The notes below the pieces were generated by a model. The model searched no databases. It had not been told where the DNA came from and worked only from the letters and a program-made list of their open reading frames with translations. The position numbers and the translations under genes were made by a program. Of a DNA stretch of 40,170 nt, positions 17,440-23,646 are shown in pieces. The stretch covers positions 1-40,170 of the forward strand of contig JAENYU010000022.1 in assembly GCA_016841625.1 (NCBI GenBank). Reading direction: 5' to 3'. This DNA comes from Methanobacteriota archaeon (GTDB lineage: Archaea > Halobacteriota > Methanosarcinia > Methanosarcinales > Methanosarcinaceae). Numbering within the stretch: position 1 is the first letter of the stretch; every line of letters begins with the position of its first letter.

Positions 17440-17898
17440 TTACCTGGAGATCATCATTTCAGCGGTCTCAGGCTTATAGAGCCATTCCTTGGGAAGTACC
17501 TTTTCCTGGTGGTAGTACTTAACAAGCCTGCGGATCTTGGATTCGGTCAGCTGGAGAGAACGCTTGTTGTGGACGTCCTTCTTGTTGATTGCAAGGTGCT
17601 TCCTGAGTCCGAGGGCCTTGACGATCAGGTTGTAGAGGTCTTCGGGGACACTTGGAGCAACGTTGTTTTCCTTGAGGATGGCTGTGACCTTCTTGCCTGT
17701 AAGAAGTTTCACATCAGGGACTCCGTAGCGGTCTCTCAGGATCATTCCGATTTCTGAGGTCGCTGCGCCCTGTTTCCAGAGATCAAGTATGACTCCGGTT
17801 GCTTCTTCTGCACTTACCTTGCACCACTCGGGGGACTCGGTCCTATTGGGTCTTGTAGATGAAGACTTACCTTTACTTCTGGTATGCATTTTAGCCAT
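17440..17898 (-). CDS. rpsO: 30S ribosomal protein S15
   Basis: Archaeal/eukaryotic-type S15 (S13e), 152 aa, a primary 16S rRNA-binding protein of the small subunit. The basic N-terminus [17 protein letters not shown], the segment [17 protein letters not shown] and the closing RIRR-like run [17 protein letters not shown] with WLYKP are all typical. AGGAGAA precedes the ATG by about 7 nt. It appears to be a single-gene unit with its own terminator. Sequence and length are unremarkable for the family. Confidence 0.97.
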
Positions 17899-18484
17899 GT
17901 ATCATTCTCCTGATATCGATTGATCAGCGCCCGGAGGTCCATGTTCCAGGCTTAAGTTATATCTTTACCGATTATAACGGACCAATTACACCGATCGGGA
18001 GATTTTTTTTCCGTCACAGCAACTACTGCCGCATGACTTTTTACAGGATAAGTATTCCTGAATAAAGCGTGAGTTTTTCGGTAAAAGCGACTCTAGTAGG
18101 CACAGCATGTAATATATACTTTGTGTTGAAGGAAAATACAGAGGACGCGGCGGCAGAACATTTTTTCAGAGCTGGAAAAGATATTATTTCAGCACTCTTC
18201 AAGAGTACCGCCCTTATTTAAAAGCCCCAAAGGCCAGCCGGGTATGCCCGGAAGTCTGCCCGGAGATAGGAGCTTCTTAAAGTCAGATCTTTTTGCCTGA
18301 ATTCAGATCTATAGCGAGGCAGGAGTTTTGCAAGAAGACAGGAACCTGGAGAGGGAAAAAAATTGGAGAGGGAGAGAACTTGGAGAGGGAAAAAAATTGG
18401 AGAGGGAGAGAACTTGGGGAGGCAGAGAACGTGGGGAGGCAGAGAACTTGGAGAGGGAGGGGGGCAAGAAGCTTTTCCCGGGGC
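17899..18484. other. Intergenic region with 17-nt repeat array
   Basis: A 586-nt region between the rpsO start and the end of the pilin-like operon (both minus). The left half should contain the rpsO promoter (AT-rich at about 17955-17980). The right half is occupied by a purine-rich 17-nt array ending about 20 nt from the operon stop. I see no gene in it. Confidence 0.6.
18346..18464. repeat. 17-nt tandem repeat, 7 units
   Basis: TTGGAGAGGGAGAGAAC and variants begin at 18346, 18363, 18380, 18397, 18414, 18431 and 18448. Two variants alternate in the first four units, so a 34-nt higher-order duplication is visible. The strand is purine-only over long runs. Confidence 0.95.
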
Positions 18485-19729
18485 TCAGGAAGGGGGCCAG
18501 AGGCTCAGGACTATCCGCGCCCCCCCCGGATTAACCTGCCTGTAAATCGATTCCACCTGAGCATCTCTGAGGGCCTGTACCTCTGAGAAATCTTCAGCCG
18601 CAACCATGCCCGAAATGGTCTGGTTGATTTCCCCGGAAAACTCGGCTTCAAGCTCTGTCCTTATTTCTCCCTCAAGAACGGCGAGCAGGAGGTCCTGAAG
18701 TACCGGAAGGTCGGAGGCTGAAACATTCTCGGGACTGATTCCGGATTCAAGTTTAAAATCGGCTTCAAGCAGTTCCGCGAAAAAAACCAGGAACACTTCT
18801 TCCGGACTTTCGGAGCTCACCGCCCCGGGATTTTCAGGGACGCCATAGAGCAGCGTCTGCATGGACTCATCTGCCTCCTCCCCGAAAACCGAGCCGAAAT
18901 ATTCCGATGGGAAAAGAAGTTCCGACACCGCCCTGGCCCCTTCAAGAGCAGCGGCATCAAGGACGAAATCAAAATCCATAGAAAGGTTTTCCGCAGCCTC
19001 TGCATCGGAAGTATTGAGGGAACTTTCAAGGACGGAATCACTTACACAGTTGAAGATGGCTTCTCTTGAAGGAGCATAGGTGTTAGGAGGCATGGAAAGC
19101 TTTGCACTTTGCCGGATCGCAGAGGCAGGAGCTTCATCCCCGATGACAAGTTCGCTCCCGAGGGGAAAAGCTTTCACGGGATACCAGTATGCCTCAAAGC
19201 GGTAGGAGAACCTCCCTGCCAGTTCCCGGTCCAGGTAAGCCGTGACAACATCCGAAGCCTGTGCGTTATAATCGGCAGCAAGGGGATTGAGAGGAACTGG
19301 AGAACCGCTGTCCGAAAGCATAAGGGAAAGGGCAAGGTATTCTGCAGTCAGGTCGGCAAAAGTCCGGTGCTTCTGCTCTTTTCCGAAAAGGGTGCGCACA
19401 GGACTTTCAACCACGGAATTTTCGGGCAGTTCAAGCCCTAAAACCGAAAAAGGAGAGATTTCATAATCGAAATCTTCAAACTTGCAGGAGAGAAATGTCT
19501 CCAGCAGGTGGGAGTCCATTTCGGAACCTGCCGTGTAATAAGCCGCTTCATACTGCCCCTCTGCTTGCAGGGAAGGCATGAGCAGAACCCCTGCAAGCGA
19601 GATCAGCACAAGCAAAAATAGGGCATCAAAGACCGTGGAATAACCGGAAGAATCCCATATCCGGATTTTTCTGCGTTCCGGAATTTTCCCTATCATCCGG
19701 CCCAGGAACATCCATTTCCTATCTGTCAA
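18485..19729 (-). CDS. N-terminally anchored pilin-like protein D
   Basis: A 414-aa protein of unknown function, fourth in a minus-strand cluster. A basic N-terminus (KIPERRKIRIW) and the sequence DSSGYSTVFD (D26) precede one transmembrane helix (about residues 32-52). The rest is an acidic, Ser/Glu-rich extracellular-type domain. The layout recalls haloarchaeal TadE- or pilin-like proteins with a short D/R-x-S motif before the helix; I recall similar DUF7284 proteins, but the link is unconfirmed. The start is TTG 19729 with GGAGGGT 8 nt upstream. The 130-nt gap before it contains possible promoter sequence. Confidence 0.6.
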   Translation of the reverse strand: MTDRKWMFLGRMIGKIPERRKIRIWDSSGYSTVFDALFLLVLISLAGVLLMPSLQAEGQYEAAYYTAGSEMDSHLLETFLSCKFEDFDYEISPFSVLGLELPENSVVESPVRTLFGKEQKHRTFADLTAEYLALSLMLSDSGSPVPLNPLAADYNAQASDVVTAYLDRELAGRFSYRFEAYWYPVKAFPLGSELVIGDEAPASAIRQSAKLSMPPNTYAPSREAIFNCVSDSVLESSLNTSDAEAAENLSMDFDFVLDAAALEGARAVSELLFPSEYFGSVFGEEADESMQTLLYGVPENPGAVSSESPEEVFLVFFAELLEADFKLESGISPENVSASDLPVLQDLLLAVLEGEIRTELEAEFSGEINQTISGMVAAEDFSEVQALRDAQVESIYRQVNPGGARIVLSLWPPS

Positions 19730-19859
19730 TTATTCCGACCCTCCAATAATCTTATCCAATGCTCTTCGGCGCCCCACTACTCATTTATTTAAATCAGATC
19801 CATTTTAATCGGATCCAGAAACCATATCCAGAGTATTTAATTTGCTCCGGCCCCCTTAT

Positions 19860-20495
19860 TCAAACCCACCCCGGCTGATAGAGTACAACTGTGAGAGTCC
19901 CCGGAACCGATTCTGCAGGGTTCAATTCGATGACCACCGGTATGGAAGTAGCTATACGGTCCGTATCTTCAAGGAAAAAAACAGGGTCTCTGTCATCGGG
20001 TATGATCTTCCACTCCCATTTTCCATCCAGAGTCCTGACCTCAATCAGGAACACATAATTTCCCGAAAAAGCCGCAAAGAGCCGTTCCCTTTCCACTTCC
20101 CCCCCGGGGCCTGAAAGTCCGCCGAGAACCTCGGCAGAGAGGAGGTTAGGGTTTCCAGCCCTCAGGGCAGGGGCTCCGGCAAGGGACTCCGCCAGGAGAG
20201 AAGCGCTTTCGTAGTGTTCAAGGGCAAAGGAGCGGTCCTCGTAGCCCAGATAACCCTGGGAGAGCAAGGCGGCAAAGACAACAAAACCGATTACCGCAAG
20301 AGCTGTGGAAAGGAGGTCAGCCTGAGGTTCGAGCACCCCGCTTTCGTCCCGGAACAGCCTGGAAAAGGGTTTTCCGGAAAGCTTCCCTGGAAATGTTCCT
20401 AAAAATTTTCCAGGAAGCTTCCCGCTAACAAAAGAAAAATCATTGATAGATGAGGATACACGCAAAACCCGAAACCTCCTCCCCTTCCTTAACAT
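19860..20495 (-). CDS. N-terminally anchored pilin-like protein C
   Basis: A 211-aa protein of unknown function. A long basic N-terminal segment with repeated G-K-L-P-G/G-T-F-P-G-like patches leads to RDESGVLEPQADLLS (D50), followed by a transmembrane helix (about 62-80) and a ~120-residue outer domain with SIPVVIELNPAES and a C-terminal VVLYQPG. The motif before the helix matches that of its neighbours. ATG 20495 overlaps gene B by 56 nt. A TTG at 20465, 9 nt after a perfect GGAGGAGG, is an equally good start and would cut the overlap to 26 nt. Confidence 0.6.
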   Translation of the reverse strand: MLRKGRRFRVLRVSSSINDFSFVSGKLPGKFLGTFPGKLSGKPFSRLFRDESGVLEPQADLLSTALAVIGFVVFAALLSQGYLGYEDRSFALEHYESASLLAESLAGAPALRAGNPNLLSAEVLGGLSGPGGEVERERLFAAFSGNYVFLIEVRTLDGKWEWKIIPDDRDPVFFLEDTDRIATSIPVVIELNPAESVPGTLTVVLYQPGWV

Positions 20496-21072
20496 AAATG
20501 AATTCCTTCTTTATCGAGACATCTTTAGCAACATCCAGCTCCTTTTCCTCAGCACCGACAGCCGAAAGATACTTCGTTATTTCCGAATAGTCCGCAGGCA
20601 AAGGGTCTTCTTCGCCCCCTTCTGCCCCGAACCTGTCCAGGAGCTTTTCCCGCAGAGCAGTTTCATTTAAAGGCAAAACCCTGAAAGCAAAAGGTTTTAC
20701 TGCCCGGACTGTTTTTCCGTCAATTTCAGTTTCCAGCCTGACATATTCTCCGGAGACGTAAGCCTCGACTCCCCGCTCGAAAGGAGAAACATGAAACCGG
20801 CTAAATCCTTCAAAATGGTAGAAGACCTCAGAGGGCTCCTCCTGAAAACTTTCGGCTCCAAGCTCATCCACGGCAGCTTTGAAGCCCCTGGCAGCGGCAT
20901 CAAGTTCCTCCCCGGCTTCAAGACTTATGAAACCGGCCCCCAGCTGGAAAAGAGCTGCAAAAAGGACGGCACTTGCAAGGATAAGAGCCGCTTTCGAGAT
21001 CAGGAAATCAGCCCATGCGGATTCGTCCTCCAGAATTTTCCTCCCCGAATGCCCCCCGATCCTGAGAGTCAT
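20440..21072 (-). CDS. N-terminally anchored pilin-like protein B
   Basis: A 210-aa protein of unknown function. EDESAWADFL (D16) precedes a transmembrane helix (about 24-47). The outer part begins EELDAAARGFKAAVDELG, a possible helix, then becomes beta-rich. The ATG overlaps the stop of gene A by 4 nt (ATGA), showing tight coupling. Like A, C and D it has a short cytoplasmic head, one helix and an outer domain, so the four proteins could assemble together at the membrane. No catalytic motif is seen. Confidence 0.6.
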   Translation of the reverse strand: MTLRIGGHSGRKILEDESAWADFLISKAALILASAVLFAALFQLGAGFISLEAGEELDAAARGFKAAVDELGAESFQEEPSEVFYHFEGFSRFHVSPFERGVEAYVSGEYVRLETEIDGKTVRAVKPFAFRVLPLNETALREKLLDRFGAEGGEEDPLPADYSEITKYLSAVGAEEKELDVAKDVSIKKEFIYVKEGEEVSGFACILIYQ

Positions 21073-21665
21073 ACCCCACTCCCCGATTCTTCATCTGCGT
21101 CTTCATCTGCGTCTTCATCTGCGTCTTCATCTACTTCCTGCAAACCTTCACCTTCGCTTTCGAAAACCAGAACGAATAACCTCCCCGTCTCAGGCTCAAT
21201 TGCAGTTTCAAGAACCAGCCTGTGCCGTCCGGGGGCAAAAATTGCAGGCCCTTTCATAGTCGGACCCGAAAAGCTTGCGGATGAGGCGTAAAAACTGTCC
21301 CTTCTTCCCGTGCTTACATAATAATTATGGGCATCTGCCGGCCATTCTCCTTCCCTTCCCGGAAGGGCTCCAAAACCGACTTTTACATTATAAGGAACCC
21401 TGAACTCAAGAGTGATTTCACTGCCTGCCCCCCGAAGTGAGAGCTGTTCGGCCGCAGCTGTGAGTTTAGAAACTTCAGCCGCAACTTCCCGATCCCTATC
21501 TTCTACCATAAACCCGGAGAGGGAAATTGAGGAAAGCAAAAGGAGCGCGGCAAAAAGCAAAGCTCCCACCGAAAGCCTGAAAGGCAGTCCGAAGACTGCG
21601 GACTCGTCACCCGAAATGGATGCGTCGACAATCGAAACCTGAACAGCCGTAACTCTACCCCCCAC
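21069..21665 (-). CDS. N-terminally anchored pilin-like protein A
   Basis: A 198-aa protein of unknown function, first gene of the cluster. GDESAVFGLPFRLS (D20) precedes a transmembrane helix (about 32-52). A beta-rich outer domain follows, with an aromatic-rich segment around NYYVSTGRRDSFYASSAS. The C-terminal tail contains (D-E-D-A)n coded by a 12-nt repeat. The start is GTG 21665, with AGGG 9 nt upstream; a TATA box lies at 21716-21726. Its neighbours B, C and D share the head-motif-helix layout. Confidence 0.6.
   Translation of the reverse strand: MGGRVTAVQVSIVDASISGDESAVFGLPFRLSVGALLFAALLLLSSISLSGFMVEDRDREVAAEVSKLTAAAEQLSLRGAGSEITLEFRVPYNVKVGFGALPGREGEWPADAHNYYVSTGRRDSFYASSASFSGPTMKGPAIFAPGRHRLVLETAIEPETGRLFVLVFESEGEGLQEVDEDADEDADEDADEESGSGV
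21089..21136 (-). repeat. 12-nt tandem repeat in gene A, 4 units
   Basis: CTTCATCTGCGT (plus strand) repeats at 21089, 21101 and 21113, with a diverged fourth unit at 21125. In gene A's frame it encodes an acidic DADE-type repeat, and the period keeps the frame. Confidence 0.9.
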
Positions 21666-21731: not shown

Positions 21732-21798
21732 ACAGCTAAAAAAGTTTTGGTAATAATTGGAATGTTGGTAAGAAAATAGAAATAAACGAAAATTGAAA

Positions 21799-21846
21799 GA
21801 AGAAGAAGAAGAAGAAGAAGAAGAAGAAGAAGAAGAAGAAGAAGAA
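21799..21846. repeat. (GAA)16 trinucleotide tract
   Basis: Sixteen uninterrupted GAA triplets (TTC on the transcribed minus strand) lie between the hisS stop and the TATA box of the pilin-like operon. Uninterrupted tracts of this length are prone to slippage. Confidence 0.97.
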
Positions 21847-21951
21847 GGGAAGGGGAACAAAGAAAGTAGAAAGAGGGAGAGGAATAAAGAAAATCGAAAA
21901 AAATCGAAAAAGATATGTAATAAAATATTAGAGAGAAAAAGTCCTGCGGTT

Positions 21952-23187
21952 TTACTGCCGCGAGACCTTCCTGATGACTTCTTCTACCGTAAGAAGCTCC
22001 TGCTCCCCGGATTCCATGTCTTTCAGGGTGAGCTTCCCGGCTTCGAGCTCTTTTTCCCCTACGATTACCACGTAGTCGGCATCGATGTTGTTTGCGAAAG
22101 TGAGCTGGGTCTTGAAGTTGCGCTCCATCAGGTCTACATGCACGGGCACGTATTCTCTTAGCTTGTTCGCGAGTTTGATGGCTTCCAGGTGGGTTACGGG
22201 CTTTGAGACCAGTACCAGTTTCTTAGGTTCTTCGGGCTCGAGCTCGCAGATTTCCATGATCCTATCAAAGCCGATCCCGAAGCCCGTTGAAGGCACGTCG
22301 CCGCCGCCAAAAAGCTGGATCAGCCGGTAGGAACCACCCCCGCAGACCTGCTTCTGGGCGCCCAGGCCTTCGCCGTAGACCTCAAAGACCATTCCGGTGT
22401 AATAATCAAGCCCCCGGGCAATCCCGAAGTCCAGGGAATACTCAACGCCGTATGCGTCAAGGAGCTCTAGGGTCTTTTCGAAGCTTTCGAGTTCCGGGAT
22501 GTTTCCTACGATTTCTTTTACCTGGGGGAGGATTCCCTTGCCTTCCAGTTTGATCAGCCTGAACAGCTTTGATTTCAGGGCTTCGCTGGAACCGATATCT
22601 TCGAGCAGGGTTTCGAGCCCTTCATACTCTTTCTTGTCCACAAGCCGCATTATCTTGCCCACGGTCTCGGAGTCAAGTTCCTGCAAAATAGTGCGGATCA
22701 CGGACAGGTTCCCGATTTTCAGGTCACCTTTGATCCCTGCAGCCTTTAACATTGCATTTGCCAGGGCAATTACCTCGGCATCGGAATCAGGCTTGCTGCT
22801 CCCTATAAGCTCTACCCCGAACTGCCAGAATTCCCTGAAACGACCCTTTTGAGGGCGCTCGTAGCGGAAGCAGTTTTCAAAATAGAACAGCTTCAGGGGT
22901 TTTGGGAGGGCCTGCAGTTCATTTACATACATGCGCATGACAGGAGCCGTGAGTTCGGGCCTGAGGGTCATGTCCCTGCCACCCTTGTCCTTGAAATTGT
23001 AGAGTTCGCCTACGATCCCTTCCCCTGATTTCAGGGTGAAGAGGTCCAGATGTTCGAACGTGGGAGTAATGACCTCGCTGTAGTCCCAGTTGCGGGCAAC
23101 ATTCCTCATTATGCTTTCCACGTACCTTCTCCGGGAAGTGTCGGCAGGTAAAAAATCCCGGGTCCCTCTTGGCCTATTGACTGTCAT
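21952..23187 (-). CDS. hisS: Histidyl-tRNA synthetase
   Basis: Class II aminoacyl-tRNA synthetase charging tRNA-His, 411 aa, normal length. Motif 1 surrounds [12 protein letters not shown]; motif 2 is [20 protein letters not shown]; the histidine-specific loop is [15 protein letters not shown]; motif 3 is [11 protein letters not shown]. The C-terminal anticodon-binding domain starts near LVLVSKPV. I chose ATG 23187 ([12 protein letters not shown]) because AGGTG lies 9 nt upstream; a second ATG four codons earlier lacks this. T-rich sequence follows the stop on the minus strand and probably ends transcription. Confidence 0.97.
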
Positions 23188-23646
23188 TTTTAAATGCACC
23201 TGAATTCGATCGAATTAAACGAAATTATCAGTAGATGAAATTTATCTGTAAATGAAACAACCGGTAAATGAAATTTATCTTAGATAAATAGTCGGTAAAC
23301 AGAATGTATCTTTGATAAATAATCTGTGAATGAAATATTATGTAAACCAATATTATGTAAACGGGATAATGCACAAATGGATTTTGGATGTTAGTTGTTA
23401 AAAACAAGCTATTTTACTTTTTCGATGTTTGCCACAAACTCGTAAGCATAAGAGCATCGAAAGTTCATGAAACCCCGGATATAACACGGAGATAATATAT
23501 TAATTTTGTAAAATAAAGTAGAATGGATTCCAACAGACACATTTTTCGAGATCAAACAATCTTAAAGCAAATAAAGGCAAGTTTAAACCTACTAATATAA
23601 TAAACAACTTAATATACCTGATTCGCCGTAAATATTTGCGATTAAC
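23188..23646. other. Divergent hisS-cobD promoter region
   Basis: This 459-nt AT-rich gap between divergent genes has imperfect copies of GTAAATGAAATTTATCT in its left part (23225-23300) and TATA-like sequence near 23595-23620 that may serve cobD. I see no gene and no riboswitch in it. Confidence 0.5.

Follow-up and report, generated by a model that had tools for sequence, protein, structure and literature searches.

The described system closest to the genes studied here is the pilB2/C2 regulon of haloarchaea, to which a type IV pilus and a number of predicted pilins are ascribed (PMC9856176, PMC4858521); it has been described next to cetZ2, and its pilus has no known role (PMC9856176). The present analysis concerns four adjacent genes (A, B, C and D) of a stretch of 40,170 nucleotides (contig JAENYU010000022.1, positions 1 to 40,170; hereafter the window) from a Methanosarcina-like genome of 3.76 Mb (G000, assembly GCA_016841625.1). 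A-D very probably provide the pilin-like subunits for a type IV pilus of the pilB2/C2 type, the genes of which are dispersed over three loci. The best supported arrangement is: (i) A-D in the window; (ii) the PilB ATPase and the PilC platform protein on contig C56; (iii) a large surface protein of the DUF7286 family (1395 amino acids), called E, on contig C48. Two other known systems are similar in part. The PilB3-C3/PilA adhesion pili of Haloferax also have pilins encoded away from pilB/pilC (PMC4858521), and the PilB3-like system of this genome is located on contig C42; however, A-D are not Pilin_N proteins and their motor falls in another clade. The archaellum (ArlI/ArlJ) is likewise a type IV filament machinery, and the ATPase of contig C49 appears to be of this type, but it belongs to a separate ATPase clade and the A-D set contains no archaellins.

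The gene order of the haloarchaeal operon is DUF7310-DUF7311-pilB-pilC-DUF7283-DUF7285-DUF7284-DUF7286. The part A'-pilB-pilC-B'-C' is found in 10 of the 13 haloarchaeal loci fetched, and a tubulin-like gene adjoins at least four of them (L145, L150, L154 and L163). This operon is taken to be the pilB2/C2 regulon on the basis of its gene content and neighbours, and not of a named sequence. Two traits reported for subclade 4F by Makarova et al. (2016), namely the presence of a coiled-coil protein and of an ATPase extension rich in Cys (PMC4858521), fit the haloarchaeal DUF7284-linked operon, whereas Legerme and Pohlschroder put the PilB2 of H. volcanii in subclade 4C (PMC6491452); the subclade label is thus left open. 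In one haloarchaeal locus (L146, 8043-13427) the homologues of A, B, C, D and DUF7286 follow one another directly and the A-B junction lacks pilB/pilC, which is also the methanogen arrangement.

The genes of the window are the following (a slash follows position −1, i.e., the last residue of the N-terminal motif):

Gene D, 18485-19729, minus strand: 414 amino acids, TTG start; DSSG/YST ahead of the helix; DUF7284 homologue.
Gene C, 19860-20495, minus strand: 211 amino acids; DESG/VLEP with a conserved Glu-Pro; DUF7285 homologue.
Gene B, 20440-21072, minus strand: 210 amino acids; motif DESA; stands at the DUF7283 position of haloarchaea.
Gene A, 21069-21665, minus strand: 198 amino acids, GTG start; DESA/VFG anchor at the N-terminus, then an outer domain.
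rps15 (ribosomal protein S15), 17440-17898, minus strand: conserved downstream neighbour of D, outside the machine.
hisS (histidyl-tRNA synthetase), 21952-23199, minus strand: conserved upstream neighbour of A, outside the machine.

The sequence-only reading of the window had described A-D as an operon of pilin-like membrane proteins, and its description of the layout is confirmed. The four open reading frames are all present on the minus strand at the positions it gave. The overlap of A with B is 4 bases long (ATGA) and that of B with C 56 bases; the gap from C to D is about 130 bases. Each protein has a single hydrophobic N-terminal helix with the motif D-[ES]-S-[AG] directly ahead, and A has an acidic tail of low complexity. 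In a codon comparison with a Methanosarcina relative, the ratio of nonsynonymous to synonymous substitution rates (dN/dS) is 0.39 for A, 0.37 for B, 0.28 for C and 0.25 for D (0.13 for HisS). A-D are therefore constrained genes under purifying selection. No Rfam family overlaps the A-D region, and bacterial promoter scans are inapplicable since the host is an archaeon.

A-D are real, conserved genes which keep their order. That the genes would not stay together in relatives had been named beforehand among the results that would speak against the sequence-only reading; the order A-B-C-D-rps15 is in fact kept in nearly all Methanosarcinaceae loci with a long enough contig. A protein search with D finds it in 29 of 60 relatives. 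In Methanosarcinaceae hisS usually stands directly before A, and overlaps it in some genera. A-B-C-D are also found together, without hisS and rps15 there, in two other families of the order (f2 and f5; loci L061, L062 and L064-L068) and in Methanocella-like genomes. In this sample the placement between hisS and rps15 is thus specific to Methanosarcinaceae. The identity of A-D falls to 21-25% in the distant families and Methanocella-like genomes, where the N-terminal motif is kept.

The likeness to haloarchaeal DUF7284 and DUF7285 proteins, suggested in the sequence-only reading, is borne out for D and C, respectively. With Pfam, D of the window scores 22.7 bits against DUF7284, below the curated cut-off of 27, and many D orthologues of Methanosarcinaceae lie above this cut-off, with E-values down to 1e-16. 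By sequence comparison D thus holds as kin to DUF7284 although the window copy fails the formal threshold. C of the window scores 17.5 bits against DUF7285 (same cut-off of 27); this model matches 19 of 23 C orthologues at E-values of at most 0.1, one of them, from a Methanocella-like genome, exceeding the cut-off (39.2 bits). DUF7311 matches 6 of 22 A orthologues. The comparison of profiles with hhalign gives the same pairs: D with the haloarchaeal DUF7284-type alignment (99.8%, E-value 1.5e-29), C with the DUF7285-type (99%, E-value 4e-18) and A with the DUF7311-type (95.5%, E-value 1e-8). All off-diagonal pairs are insignificant, hence the match is specific for A, C and D. B was insignificant against DUF7283 in the first comparison; a deeper B profile reaches 71% (E-value 3.6e-5) with the DUF7283-type and far less with the other types, which suggests that B is probably a DUF7283 homologue. 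Other searches were less productive: NCBIfam gives nothing for A-D, profile searches of Protein Data Bank (PDB) sequences with C and A are uninformative, plasmid records contain no DUF7284 relative and the literature search returned no paper on DUF7284. Membership in Pilin_N (PilA) was considered and rejected, since Pfam finds no such match in A-D nor among the A, B and C orthologues. The TadE-like layout suggested by the sequence-only reading was dropped on the same grounds.

The homologues of A, C, D and E stand in haloarchaea in one operon with PilB and PilC, in the same relative order, and an archaeal type IV pilin set, also proposed at the outset, is therefore the right class. The statement that no ATPase or platform protein is present holds for the window and not for the genome, which encodes both in trans: contig C56 carries a divergent PilB ATPase of 863 amino acids followed by a PilC of 645 amino acids. 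With haloarchaeal PilB as query the C56 PilB scores 255 bits vs. 107 bits for its C35 paralogue, and with haloarchaeal PilC as query the C56 PilC scores 187 bits. The latter was found only in this way: it is below detection with Pfam (T2SSF), and the PilC proteins of C35 and C42 do not find it. A maximum-likelihood tree built from 55 ATPases splits the C56-type sequences, together with the DUF7284-linked ones of haloarchaea, from all others with 100/100 support, at a point where, according to a warning of the program, long branches meet. The N-terminal extension of the ATPase contains Cys in both groups; C56-type ATPases have 5-8 Cys in the first 150 residues, vs. 0-2 for the three other ATPases of the genome, i.e., those of C49, C42 and C35 (the last two PilB3-like). 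The arrangement differs from that of haloarchaea in that A-D lie between hisS and rps15, while the Methanosarcina motor and E each have a separate contig of their own. Moreover, DUF7310 and a cetZ neighbour are present beside haloarchaeal loci, whereas the methanogen motor loci that were examined have neither the GGGTGSG tubulin motif of a cetZ-like gene nearby nor a visible DUF7310 gene beside them, a genome-wide search for DUF7310 not having been made.

It must be mentioned that contig C35 (L013, 6003-11229) encodes a pilB of 834 amino acids, a two-domain pilC and a membrane protein of 211 amino acids, with no pilin gene nearby. For this last reason the pair was the first candidate for the partner of A-D. 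It was abandoned, its distribution being independent of that of D and its third gene being found in only 11 of the 60 relatives.

The distribution of D follows that of the C56-type motor. Among the 60 relatives, 28 have both D and the C56-type PilC, one has D only and 31 have neither (Fisher p = 3e-16). The 28 genomes with this PilC are all the D genomes except G010, in which frameshifted remnants of B, C and D lie just ahead of rps15 (L207, 10240-11227). The C35-type PilC, by contrast, occurs in 11 of the 29 genomes with D and in 11 of the 31 without it (p = 1.0). Within four genera represented by near-complete genomes (g5, g7, g8 and g19), losses of D and of the motor coincide. In a wider sample of the family several genomes have broken motors, including G253, G267 and G377; with the DUF7284 model, D is partial in the first and not detected in the other two. 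All 15 D-positive genomes considered have the DUF7286 protein, and none of 5 D-negative ones does. Its gene adjoins D in Methanocella-like and haloarchaeal genomes and lies near hisS in some Methanosarcinaceae (e.g., G007 and G198).

The shared N-terminal motif is real: it reads DESA in A and B, DESG in C and DSSG in D. Ala or Gly at −1, i.e., the residue before the helix, is what class III (prepilin) signals require, and it is found in 188 of 188 sequences of relatives (A 42/42, B 49/49, C 49/49 and D 48/48). The residue at −4 is Asp, Asn or Glu in almost all of them, mostly Asp. A consensus for positions −2 to +2 of prepilins is known from the FlaFind literature. C fits it in 48/49 sequences and D in 26/48, the values for A and B being 6/42 and 0/49; in B, a Trp invariably follows the Ala/Gly (position +1). 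For comparison, three pilins of the pilB3-like system of the genome read SESG/VS, NRSA/VS and NDRA/VS. As regards predicted processing sites, the absence of which would have counted against the sequence-only reading, the invariant Ala/Gly is present, while A and B deviate from the published consensus. From its site, C appears to be the best pilin candidate of the four. Two genes for A24 prepilin peptidases are present in the genome (contigs C4 and C7).

The AlphaFold2 model of B (predicted local distance difference test, pLDDT, 83.9) has an N-terminal helix of 57 residues and a beta domain, a predicted architecture which is in general that of type IV pilins. The model of D (pLDDT 70) has an N-terminal helix and a mixed domain. 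The Foldseek comparison proposed earlier as a check was uninformative: the models of B and D have no significant match to a solved structure or pilin in the PDB. This lack of match neither confirms nor refutes a pilin fold.

The following mechanism is proposed. The data show the homology, the gene order, the matching distribution and the phylogeny of the motor; the processing, assembly, filament and function set out here are inferred. A-D would enter the membrane by means of their N-terminal helix. A prepilin peptidase of the PibD/FlaK type would cut off the short head on the cytoplasmic side, in C at least and probably in D, after the conserved Gly/Ala. PilB would hydrolyse ATP and thereby drive PilC, which would lift the helices into a bundle, the outer domains passing the S-layer and carrying E. 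Because each of A-D differs from the others, is single-copy and is not of the PilA (Pilin_N) kind, they are most likely minor pilins of the fibre or the ones that initiate it; the major pilin, of the PilA type, may come from elsewhere.

Several observations weigh against this interpretation. The prepilin consensus is matched by few of the A sites, by none of the B sites and by about half of the D sites; moreover, the haloarchaeal DUF7311 and DUF7283 proteins show no obvious Gly/Ala site, so that A and B may stay uncleaved. The models of B and D have no significant counterpart among solved structures, and the link of B with DUF7283 rests mainly on gene position. No major pilin was identified, no search having been aimed at the PilA family arCOG02981. 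The p-value of the co-occurrence ignores, and is inflated by, shared ancestry. Finally, G189 and G295 have the motor and are negative for D with the DUF7284 model, which is insensitive. The main alternative is that A-D form a short envelope complex, pseudopilus- or stator-like, which would serve in secretion or S-layer anchoring (like ArlF/ArlG of the archaellum); the C56 motor would drive it too, but a long filament would be lacking. The absence of a Pilin_N/PilA protein from the set, the atypical cleavage sites of A and B and the large size of D and E agree with it, but what has been described for the haloarchaeal counterpart is a type IV pilus regulon in which several pilins are predicted (PMC9856176, PMC4858521), and major pilins encoded in trans are common in archaea (PMC4858521). 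This complex without filament is considered rather unlikely. A bolder variant, in which A-D and E constitute a distinct envelope machine (short pseudopilus or adhesive tip without PilA-type fibre), driven by a clade of pilus motor to which no function has been linked in methanogens, and perhaps serve to bring the cell into contact with partner cells or with surfaces, is speculative and more doubtful still.

A-D might also be pilins shared by other motors, i.e., the orphan pilB/pilC of C35 or the pilB3-type system of C42, instead of being dedicated to C56. The lack of pilins beside the C35 pair and the cross-use of pilin sets documented in Haloferax (PMC6491452) would be in favour of it; the C42 system carries Pilin_N pilins. 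The nearly exact match between D and the C56-type PilC, and the lack of any relation with the C35-type, make it improbable. That A-D are unrelated single-pass membrane proteins with a chance motif, or TadE-like proteins, is strongly disfavoured. It is true that they resemble one another little and that the models of B and D match no solved pilin. Nevertheless, chance similarity is rejected in view of the invariant Ala/Gly in four protein families, the order conserved over several families and the pilB/pilC genes inside the homologous operon. A dispersed pilus of the pilB2/C2 type thus remains the preferred explanation, and the suggestion of an undescribed structure has to be amended: the system is not wholly undescribed, being a split counterpart of the haloarchaeal pilB2/C2 regulon (PMC9856176, PMC4858521).

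An orphan cluster conserved across Methanosarcinaceae thereby gains a motor and a machine, and it appears that pilus subunits and their motor can occupy separate loci yet be lost together. The surfaces of Methanosarcina are important in aggregation and when electrons are exchanged with bacteria. In a 2025 review of these surfaces (PMC12369344), archaella are discussed as the appendage of the cell, and a text search for pili yields only archaella, bacterial e-pili and references. The haloarchaeal system is already known, and the 2016 census may already include the methanogen ATPases; the claim made here is only the link between A-D and the motor, worked out independently. DUF7284 and DUF7286 are also detected in the genome of Methanosarcina acetivorans, used as a control, which means that a tractable species is available for testing the prediction.

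Three repeats are found in and around the block. A perfect 12-bp repeat (21088-21132) encodes the acidic tail of A (DEDADEDADE) and is not found in other genera. A tandem repeat of 17/34 bp (about 7 or 3.4 copies, 18342-18459) lies just beyond the end of D. A perfect (AAG)17 microsatellite (21797-21847) stands between hisS and A and could affect spacing or expression.

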